From an uncultured Caryophanales bacterium (GTDB lineage Bacteria > Bacillota_I > Bacilli_A > RFN20 > CAG-449), in assembly GCA_945873815.1 (NCBI GenBank), contig CAMCEE010000020.1, positions 1 to 32,469 on the forward strand: a stretch of DNA of 32,469 bases, given 5' to 3'. A model generated the notes under the pieces. The model was given only the letters and a program-made list of their open reading frames with translations, was not told where the DNA came from and did not search any database. Made by a program: the position numbers and the translations under genes. How positions within the stretch are numbered: position 1 is the stretch's first letter; each line of letters starts with the position of its first letter. Positions 15,122-29,249 of this stretch are shown piece after piece.

Positions 15122-15198
15122 GTTCCCATAGCTCAGCTGGATAGAGCGTGCGCCTCCTAAGCGTAAGGTCGGGTGTTCGAATCACCTTGGGAACGCCA
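15122..15198 (+). tRNA. tRNA-Arg (anticodon CCT), integration site of the downstream island
   Basis: GTTCCCA pairs with TGGGAAC, and CCA is encoded at 15196-15198. The D arm (TAGCTCAGCTGGATAGAGCG), an anticodon loop CTCCTAA with anticodon CCT, and the T-loop segment GTTCGAATC are all canonical. It starts 10 bp after the hydrolase stop. Its 3' 45 bp recur at 24847, so the gene was preserved when the island integrated. Confidence 0.95.
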
Positions 15199-15199
15199 T
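15154..15199 (+). repeat. attL-like direct repeat (3' part of tRNA-Arg)
   Basis: This 46-bp stretch, from the anticodon loop through CCA and one extra T, is repeated at 24847-24892. The only difference is T15169 against G24862. It marks the left boundary of the island. Confidence 0.85.
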
Positions 15200-18249: not shown

Positions 18250-18615
18250 TTATAATGCATTATAACCAGCAATAAAATCAGCGTGATATTGACTAGGAAC
18301 AGTACTGATAATAGTAGCATAATTATTTAAAGCACCATTTATAGCAAAATGATGTGTTCTAACCAATACTCCAACATAGTCATTGCAATTTATTCTAGCA
18401 TATACCGAACCTTTTCCAGCGGTAAAAGTGAAATTTTGTGGAAATCTTGCTGGTGGTACTAAGCAATGAATTCTTCCTTCACTTCCCCAGGCTCCTTGAT
18501 CTTCGTTATGTTCCCAATAAACTTCAGCGTGATTATTATTGGCTAGGTATCCTAAAGCATAAAAATATTCGTTGTCATTTGCAAAATAAACTTGATTGTT
18601 TTTTCCAAAATTCAT
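18250..18615 (-). CDS. 121-aa protein of unknown function, last gene of the R-M operon
   Basis: I do not recognise a function. The protein is soluble and rich in aromatics and Asn: FYALGYLANNNHAEVYWEHN, then QGAWGSEGRIHCLVPP, ARINCNDYVGVLVR and a C-terminal DFIAGYNAL. There is no signal peptide, membrane segment or known nuclease motif. AAGGAGAG lies about 9 nt before the ATG. It sits 110 bp downstream of the XRE gene on the same strand and ends next to a long hairpin. Its dense runs of His, Trp, Glu and Asp suggest a real folded domain. Being in the R-M operon, it may be an accessory or anti-restriction protein, or unrelated island cargo. Confidence 0.6.
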   Translation of the reverse strand: MNFGKNNQVYFANDNEYFYALGYLANNNHAEVYWEHNEDQGAWGSEGRIHCLVPPARFPQNFTFTAGKGSVYARINCNDYVGVLVRTHHFAINGALNNYATIISTVPSQYHADFIAGYNAL

Positions 18616-18725: not shown

Positions 18726-18935
18726 TTAATATTCAAAATCAAAGAAATCTTTTAATGATACTCCTATACCATCACATATTTGTTTTAAGGTGTTAATAGT
18801 TAAATTATACTTTCCAGATTCGATTTTTGATATTAATGTTCTATCAAAAGCTATTTTTCTAGCTAATTTCTCTTGGCTAAGCCCAGCCTGTTTTCTTAAA
18901 AATTTTATTCTTAATCCTATATCTATATTTTTCAT
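18726..18935 (-). CDS. XRE-family controller-like regulator of the R-M operon
   Basis: A 69-aa protein consisting only of a Cro/C1 helix-turn-helix: RIKFLRKQAGLSQEKLARKI followed by DRTLISKIESGKYN and a C-terminal LKDFFDFEY. The size and layout match controller (C) proteins of type II R-M systems. It starts 1 bp after the endonuclease stop codon, so it is translationally coupled to it, unlike classical C genes, which lie upstream of R. The inverted repeats at 22891-22908 (leader of the methyltransferase gene) and 20174-20196 (leader of the endonuclease gene) are candidate binding sites. Confidence 0.75.
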   Translation of the reverse strand: MKNIDIGLRIKFLRKQAGLSQEKLARKIAFDRTLISKIESGKYNLTINTLKQICDGIGVSLKDFFDFEY

Positions 18936-18936
18936 G

Positions 18937-20151
18937 TTAATTATTAAAATCGATATTTACATAGTTTACGACTTGATCAAAATCTAAATAAGGAACATCT
19001 AAATATTTATCATTTTCTAAGCCTGTTTTCAAAACAAAACACATCTTATGAAATTCGTATAATCCGTTATGCATCTCATATGATTTTTTGATTGTACCAA
19101 TTTTGGATAATATGCAAATATATTGAAAGTCTTTTGAAATAATCTGAGTATTACCATTAACATGTGCATAGTTATAATGTTGAGTTGGAGTCAATGCAAT
19201 TAAATTTTCAAAATAGTCTGAAATTTCAGGATATGATTCACGAGTAAAGATATGATGAATATGAGTGGCATTTTCATCGTGACTATATTGTTCAACCTCC
19301 GATTTACCAAAATTATAGTCATTATTATAAAATTTTACCATCTTAATAGCTTTAGCAACAGCATAAGCATTGTATGGATTTTGTGGACGATTAACCACAT
19401 GTTCACTTCTTGTTATTTCTTTTGGCTTAGAGCTATACATATCTCTAAAATTTTCTCTGTTATACATTAACATATCAAAACCTATTAAATTCTTTGATAA
19501 CAATCCTTTTTCTGTGCCTTTCTTATTCCTAGTAAAAGCCATAGGATTAATAACCTTAGTAAAAATTCTTCTTGGCTCAGTAGGTTTTGTAATAGGTGTA
19601 TTTTCAATAGTGAATTGGACAAAAGAATTCTTCATTTTGCTAAAAGTATCTTTGTTTGTATTTTCGAAAAAATCCTCAAACACTTTAAATAATCCCGAAT
19701 CTCTTAGAACTTTTTCACAATATATATTCAAAAATGTTAAACTATTAATTTCTCTAAGTGCTAAGAAAGTTAATATATCTTTATTAAATACTTTATAATA
19801 ATTATATCTTCCTCGTTTGTTCTTAGTTAGTATTCCTGAATAAGCAAACAATTCTAAAGGTTGTGAGAAAAACTTGTCATACTCATTACCAGCTTTGCCG
19901 TTCATAACGCTTGGTTTTTTAAACATTGATGAAATGTGCAAATCTGTATATGGATTATTCCATATATCACGTGATGTAAATTCAACGTCATTCTCTTTAT
20001 CATACACATATTCAAGAACACAGTCAGCTATAATTGTTAAAACATCCGGAGTACATTTTTGATCAATCCAACGAGCATTACCACTCAATCTTATATCATA
20101 GTTGTGACTCATAATAAAATTTTTAACTTCATTTTGATCTATAAAACGCAT
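18937..20151 (-). CDS. HNH-type type II restriction endonuclease
   Basis: A 404-aa protein lying between a DNA methyltransferase and a controller gene. It has an HNH-like site near residues 290-330: THIHHIFTRE, then ENLIALTPTQHYNYAH, giving the H-H...N...H pattern of HNH nucleases. The N-terminal half (ARWIDQKCTPDVLTIIADCV, FTSRDIWNNPYTDLHISSMF) is probably the DNA-recognition part. AGGAGAAG lies before the ATG. The fused m5C+m6A methyltransferase partner suggests an asymmetric site, as in the Eco31I/Alw26I/Esp3I type IIS group, where Eco31I is an HNH enzyme; direct homology to those is not established here. The recognition sequence is unknown. Confidence 0.75.
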   Translation of the reverse strand: MRFIDQNEVKNFIMSHNYDIRLSGNARWIDQKCTPDVLTIIADCVLEYVYDKENDVEFTSRDIWNNPYTDLHISSMFKKPSVMNGKAGNEYDKFFSQPLELFAYSGILTKNKRGRYNYYKVFNKDILTFLALREINSLTFLNIYCEKVLRDSGLFKVFEDFFENTNKDTFSKMKNSFVQFTIENTPITKPTEPRRIFTKVINPMAFTRNKKGTEKGLLSKNLIGFDMLMYNRENFRDMYSSKPKEITRSEHVVNRPQNPYNAYAVAKAIKMVKFYNNDYNFGKSEVEQYSHDENATHIHHIFTRESYPEISDYFENLIALTPTQHYNYAHVNGNTQIISKDFQYICILSKIGTIKKSYEMHNGLYEFHKMCFVLKTGLENDKYLDVPYLDFDQVVNYVNIDFNN

Positions 20152-20196: not shown

Positions 20197-20283
20197 ACGA
20201 AAAATTTCTTATTAATTTTAGCATATTTTTCTCAAAGTTAGTATAAAAATCCTATTTAATCGTACTTTTATCCGATTTTTTTT

Positions 20284-20321
20284 TAAAAAAGACCCAAAAT
20301 TATTTCAATTCGAGTCTTTAA
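20284..20321 (-). terminator. Terminator of the methyltransferase gene
   Basis: On the minus strand AAAGACTC pairs with GGGTCTTT (one G-T wobble), and a T-run follows. It lies between the methyltransferase and endonuclease genes, so the endonuclease probably has its own promoter. Confidence 0.65.
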
Positions 20322-20356
20322 ACAATATCTATCATTTATTAATAATTAAAATCTTC

Positions 20357-22867
20357 TTATTGTGATTGTCTTATTCCAAAAAAATAAACAGAATTAGAAT
20401 CTATGTTTAGTGATCTTGTTTGATAATTTCTGGCAATTTGCATAAAGTTTCTATATTCATCACTTGAAAAAAATAATAAATCATCTTTAGAAATTTTCAT
20501 ATCTTTACTTGGAATCAATATAGCAACAGAACCATTTACAATATATCCTTTTTCTTTCTTCATAACTCGAGTTTTATAGGTCATATTTGGTGTCAAGAAA
20601 ACATCATCTCTATCAATAAATTTTGACACTTCCAATCCAGCTAAATCATCTTTTTCTAGATATCCATCATATCCTGATATATCCAAAATTTTAGAACCAT
20701 CATCGCTTATATTTCTTGATTTTAATACTCTCACTTTTGTACATTTTTTTTCTTCATTAAGTAAAGAGCTTGTGATTTGTCTATCTCTAAAGACAGAGAA
20801 CACATTAAAAGTCATATTTGAAAAGAATTTATCAAAGGCTTCATTACGATAAATTATCCAATATGGTAATTTTGAGTCAAAAATATACTTTTGAGGTTGC
20901 TCAATCTTTAAATCTTTTGTTATTGAATAAACACAAGTTTTCGAAGGTTTGAAGCTTGTATTAACATTTAGACATATAGTTTCAACAAGTACTCCTTTAA
21001 ATCCATTTTCACCAAAATCAAGAATAGAAGACACATTATAATTGCCTAAAAAATCACGCGTATCTTTATATTCTGGAGTATTTAAAATATTCTTAGGCAT
21101 AATCATTGATACATTATTTGATATGTTACAAGATTTTTCCAAAAAATACGAAGCCAAATTTGTTGAATTATAATTGCAATAATATGTTCTATTACCTAAA
21201 GCAATATCTCGTTTCGAAATCTTAGTAAATGGAGGATTACCAACCACCAAATCATATATTTTATTTGGTACAAAAGTTAGAAAATCTGAAACAATATAAT
21301 TAATTTTTACCCTATCGCTTTCAAAATGCTTAAGCATTATTTTAACTGTTTCAATTGAAGTATAATCAATATCAACCAAATCCAAGTTTATTTTTTTATC
21401 ACAATACTTATTTATAATTGAGGGGATAAAATTACCAGCACCAACACTTGGCTCCAATATATTAATCTCTTCTTTGTCGAAATCAGGTAAGTAATCATAT
21501 ATTTTATCTATAAGCATTTTGTCTGTATAATATGCAGATTGTTCATTTCTTTGAGCGTTAGAGTACTCAACTATCTTACATAAAGATGAAAAATTAATAT
21601 TATCGATATTTTCATTAACAAAACCAACTATATTCCCATTCTCATCTAATTTGTTGTCAGAAATAATCTTTACAATTTCTTTTAAAGAAAGATTTTGCTT
21701 TTTCAAAAACAATTTAATTTTATGAGCTATTTGATTGAAAATATTAGTAGGAACGGCTTCGCCAATTGATTGTCTAATATTAATTTCTTCTTTCTTCATA
21801 AATTTAACTTTAGCATCGTGCGACATCTTATTTAATTCATTAAAGTCAATATCAGTCCATTTAAACTCACAAGGAATGGACATAAGTATCATTAATTCGC
21901 GTATACTAAAAACTCTATCATCATGTGGATGAATAGTGCTTTGGCTTGCAAGCTGATCGTTTCTTGTATGGATACATGGACCAACTTTGTCCCAATATTG
22001 TCTTGTATATTTGTCACCATTCTTCTTGACGTTTTCTACTATTTCGCCATTAATTATTTGGTGTGGACGATTCTCAATTTTTTCATTATCAAAAGCAGAT
22101 TGTCCCTCTTTTAAACAAGAAATCCAACTTCTCATTTTTTCATCATAGCCTCTAAAAAAATGATAAATGTCATTAGGATCAAACTCATAAGGTTCATTCA
22201 ACGGAAGCATACCACCTATGACTTGTCTAAGTGTTTTTTCTTCTACATAATCAGGAAAAAAGTCATATGGAGAGCAAAAAGCTGATATATCGTTTCTAAC
22301 ACCAATAACTAACGTTCTTGTTCTACTAGAATTTGAACCATAATTTTTAAAATTCAGTACTTTTGCAACATAACTATAATGATTTCCTAGATTAACTTTT
22401 ATAGCTTCACCAATAGTCTTATCAATCTTATCATTATCTGTACAAATAGTTTTTATGAATGCTGGCACATTTTCAAACACAAAAAACTTTGGAAGAATTC
22501 TTTTTATAATATTAATTGATTCTATAACAAGCGAATTTCTTATAATTTCATCCTCAGTTTTCTTATGATTGGCAACAGACATACCTTGACAAGGGGGAGT
22601 AGCTATAACTACATCTACATCATTCATTTTTTCTCTAAGTTTCCAGTAATTGATTTCATCATATAGTTTGGTCTTGATTTCGTTTTTTGTAATATCTCCA
22701 CAAATATAACCAGAATCATATTTACATTTATTATTAATTCTCTGTATATTTAATCTTCTTTCTATCAATTCTAATGTTGCAATGCAATCAAAATCATTCA
22801 TTTTAAAACCAAAACATCCAACACCAGCACTACTAAATAAAGATATATATGTATTTTTCAATGGCAT
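20357..22867 (-). CDS. Fused DNA methyltransferase: N-terminal C5-cytosine MTase plus C-terminal N6-adenine MTase
   Basis: One 836-aa protein with two complete SAM-dependent MTases. The N-terminal half is a Dcm-like m5C enzyme: motif I FSSAGVGCFGF (11-21), motif IV PPCQG (catalytic Cys93), motif VI FENV (131-134), motif VIII SRTRTLVIGVR (181-191) and motif X QSIGEAVP (366-373). The C-terminal half is a gamma-type m6A enzyme: QSAYYTD (443-449), motif I LEPSVGAGNF (471-480), motif IV NPPF (544-547), then some 280 residues that could hold its target-recognition region. Neither half lacks a catalytic motif. Two different base modifications in one chain fit protection of the two strands of an asymmetric site. 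A good promoter and an inverted repeat lie upstream. Confidence 0.9.
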   Translation of the reverse strand: MPLKNTYISLFSSAGVGCFGFKMNDFDCIATLELIERRLNIQRINNKCKYDSGYICGDITKNEIKTKLYDEINYWKLREKMNDVDVVIATPPCQGMSVANHKKTEDEIIRNSLVIESINIIKRILPKFFVFENVPAFIKTICTDNDKIDKTIGEAIKVNLGNHYSYVAKVLNFKNYGSNSSRTRTLVIGVRNDISAFCSPYDFFPDYVEEKTLRQVIGGMLPLNEPYEFDPNDIYHFFRGYDEKMRSWISCLKEGQSAFDNEKIENRPHQIINGEIVENVKKNGDKYTRQYWDKVGPCIHTRNDQLASQSTIHPHDDRVFSIRELMILMSIPCEFKWTDIDFNELNKMSHDAKVKFMKKEEINIRQSIGEAVPTNIFNQIAHKIKLFLKKQNLSLKEIVKIISDNKLDENGNIVGFVNENIDNINFSSLCKIVEYSNAQRNEQSAYYTDKMLIDKIYDYLPDFDKEEINILEPSVGAGNFIPSIINKYCDKKINLDLVDIDYTSIETVKIMLKHFESDRVKINYIVSDFLTFVPNKIYDLVVGNPPFTKISKRDIALGNRTYYCNYNSTNLASYFLEKSCNISNNVSMIMPKNILNTPEYKDTRDFLGNYNVSSILDFGENGFKGVLVETICLNVNTSFKPSKTCVYSITKDLKIEQPQKYIFDSKLPYWIIYRNEAFDKFFSNMTFNVFSVFRDRQITSSLLNEEKKCTKVRVLKSRNISDDGSKILDISGYDGYLEKDDLAGLEVSKFIDRDDVFLTPNMTYKTRVMKKEKGYIVNGSVAILIPSKDMKISKDDLLFFSSDEYRNFMQIARNYQTRSLNIDSNSVYFFGIRQSQ

Positions 22868-24846: not shown

Positions 24847-24892
24847 CTCCTAAGCGTAAGGGCGGGTGTTCGAATCACCTTGGGAACGCCAT
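24847..24892 (+). repeat. attR-like partial copy of tRNA-Arg 3' end
   Basis: A 46-bp copy of 15154-15199 with one change (T to G in the variable-loop region). The 5' half of the tRNA is absent, so this is not a functional tRNA. It is preceded by GGAGTT-tcat-AACTCC (24835-24850), an inverted repeat overlapping its left edge that may be a recombinase core site. Confidence 0.88.
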
Positions 24893-26227: not shown

Positions 26228-27019
26228 TTATTTTCTTAAGACAACAATATATTTATGATTTAAGTTTGCATAAAAGATTTTTGGATATCCTTGAAGTAAT
26301 AATCCCCTTTGATCATTGTGATCATAGATAATTACATCTTGATATAAATATCCTGCTTTAATTCCCTTTTTTGCAATGTCTGCATGAAATTCTACATATG
26401 GTTTATTATTCTTTATATCACGATAATCTTCAACAATAAATACTGCATATCCACCTTTTTTAGTTATTCGATATAATCTTCTCATCAAATCTTCAATATT
26501 CTTAAGATATTCTTCATATTTATCATCGCCAAAGTCTAATGAATTCTCATCTTTCTTTTTTCTTTTGGAAATCGATGGTTTACTTGGAGAAGTAATGATT
26601 AATTGAATCGTTTCATCCTCAATTCTTTCGGTTGCAAGAAAAGCATCCATATTCATCAATTCATAATCTCCATTTACTAAAAGATTGATTGAATTCTCTA
26701 CATTAAATTTTGCAATATCAAATACTTTCTTATGAATTTCAGATCCATAACAAAATCGATTATTCCTTATTGCTGAGATGATAGTAGTTCCTGCGCCCAT
26801 AAAAGGATCAAAAACAACATCACCTTCTTTAGAGTACATACTTATTAATCTATCTAATAATTCTAATGGTAATACATCCATATTAGGAATCTTGCTGTAT
26901 TCTTTTGGAGAAGGCAAATCTTTCCAAACACTACGAGAATGGTGAGCCCATTCAGTTGCAGTCATTCCATTAAATGTCAAATCTCTTTGTTCTTTATTCT
27001 TTTCTTCTTTTTTTGTCAT
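26228..27019 (-). CDS. DNA-methylase-fold methyltransferase with atypical motif IV
   Basis: A 263-aa SAM-dependent methyltransferase of the N4/N6 DNA-methylase type. Motif I is VVFDPFMGAGTT (68-79), preceded by PLELLDRLISMYS as in DNA methylases. The expected catalytic TSPPY/DPPY is TSPSKP (143-148), followed by a basic stretch KRKKKDE. The proline pair and aromatic residue are lost. Motif order is I then IV. The start is 2 bp after the stop of the GTPase gene upstream, so it is co-translated with metal-type GTPases, an odd place for a restriction-linked enzyme. It may act on RNA or a small target, or be an orphan DNA MTase. No restriction gene is adjacent. Confidence 0.7.
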   Translation of the reverse strand: MTKKEEKNKEQRDLTFNGMTATEWAHHSRSVWKDLPSPKEYSKIPNMDVLPLELLDRLISMYSKEGDVVFDPFMGAGTTIISAIRNNRFCYGSEIHKKVFDIAKFNVENSINLLVNGDYELMNMDAFLATERIEDETIQLIITSPSKPSISKRKKKDENSLDFGDDKYEEYLKNIEDLMRRLYRITKKGGYAVFIVEDYRDIKNNKPYVEFHADIAKKGIKAGYLYQDVIIYDHNDQRGLLLQGYPKIFYANLNHKYIVVLRK

Positions 27020-27021
27020 AA

Positions 27022-27963
27022 TTAATTACCTGTAAGATTGAGTATATCATCTTTTGGCCCTTGAATCGTTTCAATTGATATTGGATATAACATCAATTCT
27101 TCTTCATTATATTCATCAGACCATTCATATGCTACTTTAGCTTTTAAATGAATCCATTGTCTATCGACTAAATCTTTTCCCAAATTATCCTTAACTAAGA
27201 ATCCATATAATTGCATATCATTTGCGCAGCAATTCATAATAAATCTTCCTGCAATAAAAGTATTAGGTGGAAGCTTATCACTTAATATTACTTGAATATC
27301 ATATTCAACTGTCTTGCCATCGTATCTATTCTTATTATCAAATGTATCGATGTAAAATGTTCCAAAATCATCGCGTTCAATCTTAATAACCGGTGCTTCA
27401 ATATCATAAGGAAGCGGTTCTTCAAATGCATCAGAAGCAGTCATATTCTTATCCATGCATAAATATTGACATCTATTATTAATAAGTTTTAAAGCAGCAC
27501 GATATGGTTCAATTTGATCTTGACTAGATAATTTTGTAAAGCAAACTAAATGTGCTCTTTTAATGATATCGACAAATTTTTGTCTCATATTATTAAAATA
27601 TACACCAAATGTTTGAGCATCGATAAATTCAACTACTTGAACTATTTCAATTGAACGAGGAAATTGTAATTCTTCTAAATTCCACATTCCATTCATTTCC
27701 ATAACAATGCGATCAGGCTTTTCTTCTTTAACTAATTTATCAATTAATTTATAATCAAATTCTTCGATAGAATTAAAATACTTAATTGTCGTGTTTGCTT
27801 CTTCTAAAAACTTAGGATCGTATTCAACCTCCCCTTCTTCACAAACTAGAAGGAGAGTTTTTTGCATATTATCACCTAAATCAGATTTTAATGTATCGAT
27901 AATAAAACTTGTTTTACCTGAATCTAGAAATCCACTAATAAAAAATACTGGTACTTTTTTCAT
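27022..27963 (-). CDS. CobW/COG0523-type GTPase fused to a YcgQ (DUF1980)-like C-terminal domain
   Basis: A 313-aa protein. The N-terminal P-loop is GFLDSGKTSF (11-20). The position where CobW proteins have NEFGE reads CEEGEVE (41-47), and the CxCC metal motif is missing. FTKLSSQDQ stands near the usual NK(x)D-type base-recognition site. The C-terminal third contains FIAGRFIMNCCANDMQLYGF (Cys245-Cys246) and WIHLKAKVAYE, resembling the C-terminal metal-site region of YcgQ/DUF1980 proteins. In other bacteria YcgQ partners a YcgR permease and is often near COG0523 GTPases; here the two parts appear to be one chain. AGAGG precedes the ATG, 11 bp after the upstream GTPase stop. A role in metal delivery is inferred. 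Confidence 0.75.
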   Translation of the reverse strand: MKKVPVFFISGFLDSGKTSFIIDTLKSDLGDNMQKTLLLVCEEGEVEYDPKFLEEANTTIKYFNSIEEFDYKLIDKLVKEEKPDRIVMEMNGMWNLEELQFPRSIEIVQVVEFIDAQTFGVYFNNMRQKFVDIIKRAHLVCFTKLSSQDQIEPYRAALKLINNRCQYLCMDKNMTASDAFEEPLPYDIEAPVIKIERDDFGTFYIDTFDNKNRYDGKTVEYDIQVILSDKLPPNTFIAGRFIMNCCANDMQLYGFLVKDNLGKDLVDRQWIHLKAKVAYEWSDEYNEEELMLYPISIETIQGPKDDILNLTGN

Positions 27964-27974
27964 CTTATTTACCT

Positions 27975-29249
27975 CTATTTATCAAATAGTCTTTTGATCT
28001 TTTCTATATCTAATTTAGAGCCAATAACAACGAATCTTCCAATGTAATCAGGATTACCTTCTCTTATCTCATAATCCCCTGCGACATAGTCGAAATAATA
28101 CCAAGAATCATTATCACTTGCTTTCAAAATTCCTTTACTACGAAGAATCATACCTAAAGAATCATCATTTGCCATTGCATTTAATAGACCATTAAGTTCA
28201 TCTCTTGAAAATGCTTTTACTGTTTCTAATCCCCAAGAAGTAAATACTTCATCCGCATCATGTCCATGATGGTGATGATGGTGGCATTTACATTCTTCAT
28301 CATGATCATGTTCGTGACAGCATTCATCTTCTTCATGGTGGTGACAACAACATTCGCCTTCTTCATGATGGTGATGATGGTGACATTCACATTCTTCATC
28401 ATGATCATGTTCGTGGCAACATTCATCTTCTTCATGGTGGTGACAACAACATTCACCTTCATCATGATGGTGATGATGGCATTCACATTCTTCATCATGA
28501 TCATGTTCGTGGCAGCATTCACCTTCTTCATGGTGGTGATGACAACATTCTCCTTCATCATGATGGTGATGATGGTGGCATTCGCATTCTTCATCTTCAC
28601 ATTCATCTTCTTCGTGTTCTTCCATCATTTTATGAAGTAATTCATCCTTAAACGAATCTTTCTTTTCTAAGAATTCAACTAATTCATCTCCGTTAAATGC
28701 ATTGATATTTGTAGTAACAATATTTGCATTAGGATTAACTTGTCTTATTAATTCAACAGATTCTTGCAATTTCTCTTCACTTATCTTATCTACCTTACCA
28801 ACGACAATTGTGTTTGCATTTTCAACTTGATTAACAAAGAATTCGCCAAAATTCTTTATGTACATTTTGACTTTTCCTCCATCTACAACAGTAGTAAGAA
28901 TATTCACTTTTAAATCTGCATCAACATTTCCAATAGCATTTACAATATCGGATAATTTACCTACACCCGATGGCTCAATAATAATTCTTGTAGGATCAAA
29001 TTTTGCGATTACTTCTTTCATTGATGAAGCAAAATCTCCAACTAACGAACAACAGATACAACCAGAATTTATCTCCTTAATCTCAATACCTGAATCCTTT
29101 AAAAAAGACCCATCTATACCAATTTCTCCAAACTCATTTTCAATAAGTACAACCTTTTCATTCTTAATCTTTGCAGATTCAAACATCTTTCTAATTAAAG
29201 TAGTTTTTCCTGCGCCTAAGAAACCTGAAATTACATCTATTTTAACCAT
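27975..29249 (-). CDS. CobW/COG0523 metallochaperone GTPase with repeated His/Cys-rich metal-binding insert
   Basis: A G3E-family GTPase predicted to bind and deliver a transition metal. It has Walker A GFLGAGKTT (9-17), the CxCC metal site GCICC (63-67), EPSGVG, and GKVDKI as base-recognition motif. Residues 225-331 are an insert of three near-identical units of 32-33 aa, rich in His, Cys, Asp and Glu, plus HHHHHHGHD. The CobW C-terminal domain (FTSWGLETVKAFSRDELNGL, then IGRFVVIGSKLD) follows. AGGAGG lies 9 nt before the ATG. It is the first gene of the four-gene leftward operon and has a promoter at 29311-29338. His-rich inserts usually store or sense Zn, Ni or Co; which metal is not shown. 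Confidence 0.9.
   Translation of the reverse strand: MVKIDVISGFLGAGKTTLIRKMFESAKIKNEKVVLIENEFGEIGIDGSFLKDSGIEIKEINSGCICCSLVGDFASSMKEVIAKFDPTRIIIEPSGVGKLSDIVNAIGNVDADLKVNILTTVVDGGKVKMYIKNFGEFFVNQVENANTIVVGKVDKISEEKLQESVELIRQVNPNANIVTTNINAFNGDELVEFLEKKDSFKDELLHKMMEEHEEDECEDEECECHHHHHHDEGECCHHHHEEGECCHEHDHDEECECHHHHHDEGECCCHHHEEDECCHEHDHDEECECHHHHHHEEGECCCHHHEEDECCHEHDHDEECKCHHHHHHGHDADEVFTSWGLETVKAFSRDELNGLLNAMANDDSLGMILRSKGILKASDNDSWYYFDYVAGDYEIREGNPDYIGRFVVIGSKLDIEKIKRLFDK
28284..28577 (-). repeat. Coding minisatellite, three units of 96-99 bp
   Basis: The units at 28479-28577 (33 codons), 28383-28478 (32 codons, one His codon fewer) and 28284-28382 (33 codons) encode the His/Cys-rich insert. 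Each unit is built as a His run, DEGECC-type, HHHH/CHHH, EEDECC-type, HEHDHD, EECEC. The high DNA identity suggests recent expansion. The long open frames on the other strand and in other frames here are shadows of the repeat. Confidence 0.85.

Follow-up and report, generated by a model that had tools for sequence, protein, structure and literature searches.

The DNA analyzed here (the window) is a stretch of 32,469 nucleotides from an uncultured Caryophanales bacterium, and it carries a gene for a methyltransferase combining m5C and m6A domains next to a gene for an HNH endonuclease. The locus raises the question of which family of restriction-modification (R-M) systems this pair belongs to and which DNA site it would recognize. 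The first-pass annotation likened the pair to the Type IIS systems of the Eco31I/Alw26I/Esp3I group and suggested that it might have a new specificity, as neither protein had a specific close relative. Our analysis identifies the pair instead as a Type IIS R-M system of the HpyAV/Hin4II family, horizontally acquired on a tRNA-Arg island, whose fused methyltransferase most likely marks Cm5CTTC/GAm6AGG (probability approximately 0.93). The main finding is that a logic already well understood is confirmed in a further lineage of bacteria, which provides a candidate HpyAV/Hin4II isoschizomer. The pair is a further bacterial copy of a known kind of system and is ordinary in itself, and the unexpected part is an accessory gene.

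The methyltransferase gene (20357-22867, reverse strand) is intact and encodes 836 amino acids from an ATG within the open reading frame 22867-20357. The protein is an M.HpyAV-like fusion of an m5C domain (residues ~6-390) at the N-terminus and a gamma-type m6A domain (residues ~395-836) at the C-terminus. Pfam detected a DNA_methylase domain (PF00145) at residues 7-385 (E 5e-34) and an Eco57I-type N6 methylase domain (PF07669) at residues 526-621 (E 3e-13) of this chain. The motifs of the m5C half are I (LFSSAGVGCFGF, residue 10), IV (PPCQG, 91), VI (ENV, 132), VIII (SRTR, 181), IX (316-324) and X (GEAVPT, 369), which follow the canonical order I-IV-VI-VIII-IX-X with no circular permutation. 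The m6A half contains motif I (LEPSVGAGNF, 471) and motif IV (NPPF, 544). The first-pass annotation had described the catalytic motifs of both halves as intact, and PPCQG, ENV, SRTR, LEPSVGAGNF and NPPF were all located. The PADLOC model PDLC03277 (823 positions) matched the chain end to end (935 bits, residues 6-835), and the two halves were matched by PDLC03370 (387 positions, 537 bits) and PDLC03382 (445 positions, 401 bits). In addition, a weak terminator-like hairpin and T run are found just 3' of the gene (20270-20330, reverse strand; fold -10.6 kcal/mol, z -1.8), a position absent from the list of the terminator consensus scan.

The endonuclease gene (18937-20151, reverse strand; open reading frame 20151-18937) begins 205 bp downstream of the methyltransferase gene on the same strand, which places the M gene upstream of the R gene in a shared orientation. 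It encodes an HNH Type IIS restriction endonuclease of 404 amino acids that resembles those of HpyAV and Hin4II. Neither Pfam nor NCBIfam contained a match for this protein, and the PADLOC REase_II model PDLC03488 matched it with 421 bits (E 1e-126). The pattern H-H-x15-N-x8-H is present at H299, H300, N316 and H325, and its spacing is that of H294, H295, N311 and H320 in HpyAV, an HNH site backed by mutagenesis (PMC2816704). The same spacing is kept in every primary homologue fetched; only the second endonuclease copy of one viral contig (L023) deviates, by one residue. The relatives tested are 38-52% identical to the 404-aa protein, and searches of the sequences of solved structures, with the endonuclease and with its profile, found no relative. 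Pfam, PADLOC and the motif positions bear out the description of the locus as a single-chain m5C and m6A methyltransferase beside a 404-aa HNH endonuclease. That description overlooked two small open reading frames on the same strand, at 18726-18935 and 18250-18615.

The connection to HpyAV and Hin4II rests on the PADLOC profiles, the lengths of the models and the catalytic geometry, and not on direct sequence identity. The model lengths of 823, 387 and 445 positions equal the published lengths of M.HpyAV, M1.Hin4II and M2.Hin4II in amino acids (PMC2816704), and because of this agreement in length the models almost certainly stand for the HpyAV/Hin4II family. The HpyAV methyltransferase is a C5 and N6A fusion, confirmed by resequencing, whose gene is upstream of the R gene in the same direction, and the system recognizes CCTTC and cleaves 6/5 (PMC2816704). 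The window system shares with HpyAV, the member first described, from Helicobacter pylori (26695 HP0053/HP0054), a C5-then-N6A fusion of similar length, M before R, the HNH spacing and the profile match. However, its endonuclease gene is followed by two additional genes, for a helix-turn-helix (HTH) protein and a 121-aa protein, and the system is located on a tRNA-Arg island. Hin4II (Haemophilus influenzae RFL4) belongs to the HpyAV isoschizomer family, and the two halves of the window methyltransferase match models of the lengths of M1.Hin4II and M2.Hin4II, but Hin4II has two separate methyltransferase genes whereas the window has one fused gene. HpyAII (GAAGA 8/7) also has an HNH Type IIS nuclease with an H-H-N-H pattern, but differs in having two separate exocyclic methyltransferases (m6A and m4C). 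The absence of a specific close relative therefore does not hold, since HpyAV and Hin4II are known and ten homologues are listed in the HpyAV paper (PMC2816704). A relationship to MboII was also considered and was dropped once the HpyAV paper fitted.

Full M and R homologues were found on Acinetobacter plasmids, on a Psychrobacter plasmid, in genomes of the same phylum and in viral contigs. On plasmids, in genomes and in viral contigs alike, M and R occur together as full-length homologues, which indicates that their pairing is no chance effect. On the Acinetobacter plasmids, m5C and m6A are separate overlapping genes, as in Hin4II. The endonuclease was found in none of seven congeners examined. 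Several other arrangements were observed. Three viral contigs of 39-110 kb carry a lone m5C methyltransferase that is 62% identical to the window m5C half (about 6000-7150 in L045 and L047; 5270-6420 in L046), and the flanks examined contain no match to the m6A half, the endonuclease or the 121-aa protein; these lone enzymes possibly serve anti-restriction. In Prevotella amnii (L007, 4947-10438), an HpyAV-like m5C gene is followed by a 1312-aa open reading frame that replaces the usual m6A half and in which helicase-like and methylase-like motifs were read by eye.

The four R-M-associated genes of the window are part of a segment of ~9.7 kb bounded by direct repeats. The 46 nt that end the tRNA-Arg region (15154-15199) recur at 24847-24892 (forward strand) with one mismatch (98%). 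The 3' end of tRNA-Arg(CCT), identified by ARAGORN at 15122-15198 (forward strand), forms the left boundary of the island and the 46-nt copy forms the right one. Between the repeats are also an IS21 pair and an IS30 transposase, and no integrase gene was recognized among the open reading frames of the island. Similar detached copies of the tRNA-Arg end are present in congeners, and for this reason the site resembles a hotspot of repeated integration. Elsewhere in the window (26228-29249, reverse strand), an N6_N4 DNA methylase-like open reading frame (PF01555) adjoins two open reading frames that read as CobW-type GTPases, one of which bears a long His/Cys-rich repeat.

The target, the cut positions, the metal preference and the defence role of the window system would be expected to follow those of its relatives. 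In H. pylori 26695, M.HpyAV methylates the C of CCTTC at 91.9% of sites and the A of the complementary strand at 96.0% (PMC3936762), marks which were later written Cm5CTTC/GAm6AGG (PMC10423294). The N-terminal half of the fused chain would likewise methylate cytosine on one strand of a short asymmetric site, and the C-terminal half would methylate adenine on the opposite strand of the same site, which would protect the host. The methylated site is predicted to be, most likely, Cm5CTTC/GAm6AGG. The HNH endonuclease would recognize the unmethylated site and cleave both strands at a distance of a few bases downstream of it (6/5 for HpyAV), and this cleavage would destroy entering phage or plasmid DNA.

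The window methyltransferase was compared with seven relatives over regions delimited by eye. Identity is 51-65% in the putative m5C recognition region and 53-72% in the flanking motifs, and it is 40-58% in the m6A C-terminal region and 36-52% in the m6A catalytic part. Differences in specificity between R-M enzymes usually go along with divergence of the recognition regions. Because the putative recognition regions are here conserved like the catalytic ones across the family, a shared target is suggested and CCTTC is predicted. The window system is a candidate isoschizomer of HpyAV/Hin4II, and a new specificity is unlikely. A match to a well-described symmetric specificity, named by the first-pass annotation as counter-evidence, was not found, as the site of the known relative is asymmetric.

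The alternative that survives best is a drift of HpyAV-like enzymes to another, related asymmetric site, such as one that differs from CCTTC by a single base. Few changes can shift specificity among related R-M enzymes, and the endonuclease is only 38-52% identical to the relatives tested. Also, targets differing by 1 bp were allowed for the most distant HpyAV relatives (PMC2816704). However, the conservation of the putative recognition regions is not what enzymes of differing specificity usually display, and we regard such a drift as unlikely while granting it an appreciable chance. A second alternative is that the system has degenerated and is retained solely for its methyltransferase, with an inactive endonuclease. 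The island is rich in insertion sequences, as would suit decay, but the M and R reading frames are both intact and every HNH residue is present, and this explanation appears quite improbable.

Membership in the Eco31I/Alw26I/Esp3I group (GGTCTC/GTCTC/CGTCTC) is barely credible, because the m5C half in the window is unpermuted and its domain order is opposite to that of Esp3I. The logic is alike in that m6A and m5C are placed on opposite strands of an asymmetric site, the nuclease of Eco31I is also an HNH enzyme, and Esp3I (BsmBI) likewise has a fused gamma and m5C methyltransferase. However, the m5C enzymes of Alw26I, Eco31I and Esp3I are circularly permuted (PMC5944983), whereas motifs I to X in the window are canonical, and the Esp3I fusion has the gamma-methyltransferase first and the m5C enzyme second (PMC3874165). 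In addition, the PADLOC profiles place both window proteins with HpyAV/Hin4II, in profile families different from those of Esp3I/BsmBI and Eco31I/BsaI. The compact Type IIS-like logic proposed for the locus agrees with what is published for HpyAV, in which one fused enzyme makes both m5C and m6A, but the proposed affiliation has to be given up.

The assignment to the HpyAV/Hin4II family leaves two small genes to be accounted for. The first (18726-18935, reverse strand) begins one base past the endonuclease stop, after the R gene, and encodes a 69-aa helix-turn-helix protein that resembles controller proteins (Pfam HTH_19, 6e-15; PADLOC Control_protein, 58 bits). It is probably a transcriptional controller. 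The second (18250-18615, reverse strand) encodes a 121-aa accessory protein, here called S121, for which no match was found in Pfam, NCBIfam or PADLOC, and which is a recurrent neighbour of HpyAV-type endonucleases.

Among the 15 other loci found through the endonuclease search, eight contain an S121 homologue. By source, these are two of three plasmids, three of eight genomes and three of four viral contigs; three of the five genomes that have no S121 come from one genus. Homologues adjoin the endonuclease in several viral contigs and in Psychrobacter, Acinetobacter sp. Z1, G204, G421 and G099, and in the last of these the gene separates M from R. Of the 392 genomes sampled from the phylum, only 7 had an S121 match, and in four of these seven, including that of the window, the match adjoins the endonuclease.

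The S121 domain also occurs in fusions. For example, a 331-aa protein in Apibacter (L006, 2878-3873, reverse strand) joins it to a probable PD-(D/E)XK nuclease, a label given to the partner from a motif reading alone (GFxGEF, YD, (D/E)VKTET; model pLDDT 37, two sequences). This fusion adjoins both HpyAV-type methyltransferase genes on a short contig with no HNH gene, and it may be a replacement endonuclease. The same putative PD-(D/E)XK family is encoded by separate genes in Psychrobacter, A. towneri and one viral locus. In G281 (L033, 1881-6531), the S121 domain is fused to NOV_C and clusters with an AlwI-type endonuclease and a double D12 methyltransferase.

The AlphaFold model of S121 (pLDDT 94.4, pTM 0.87) has a LAGLIDADG-like predicted fold. 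The best PDB match found by Foldseek was an intein homing endonuclease (2cw7, E 0.034, below the trust threshold of the tool), and nearly all of the top rows were LAGLIDADG proteins. All 50 of the 50 entries listed by VIA-align belong to the LAGLIDADG superfamily, with a best Z of 7.8 (rmsd 3.1 over 100 residues), a value in the range that the tool calls common. A profile-profile comparison between the S121 family and WhiA, which is a degenerate LAGLIDADG protein, gave no match, and the LAGLIDADG reading is for this reason a structural one only. PF00961 likewise yielded no relatives for a comparison. S121 resembles LAGLIDADG homing endonucleases in its predicted fold, but differs from them in having no significant sequence match and no conserved catalytic aspartate, and in being one short chain encoded next to an R-M system. 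The acidic residue that ends the LAGLIDADG helix and is needed for catalysis is replaced by N, S, H, G or R in family alignments read by eye. We describe S121 as LAGLIDADG-like and probably non-catalytic, and with low confidence we consider it probably a DNA-binding accessory of the restriction side.

A broader proposal, which we put forward tentatively and which may well fail, is that S121 has been overlooked as a third component, present in many HpyAV-type systems and in some other Type IIS ones. It would be a catalytically dead LAGLIDADG DNA-binding module that directs or aids a nuclease at the recognition site. It would do so as a free subunit next to the HNH enzyme or as part of a fusion with a different nuclease, such as the probable PD-(D/E)XK partner in Apibacter or NOV_C near the AlwI-type enzyme. 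If true, two classes of selfish nucleases would be linked through the use of homing-endonuclease-like DNA-binding folds as accessory subunits by Type IIS systems, and a family with no Pfam, NCBIfam or PADLOC match would gain a testable role. No description of LAGLIDADG accessories of Type IIS systems was found among the titles and abstracts read, and the S121 family is apparently undescribed. As a separate observation, the viral contig L023 (3151-6260) contains two HpyAV-type endonuclease genes in tandem, with a gene for the 121-aa domain between them.
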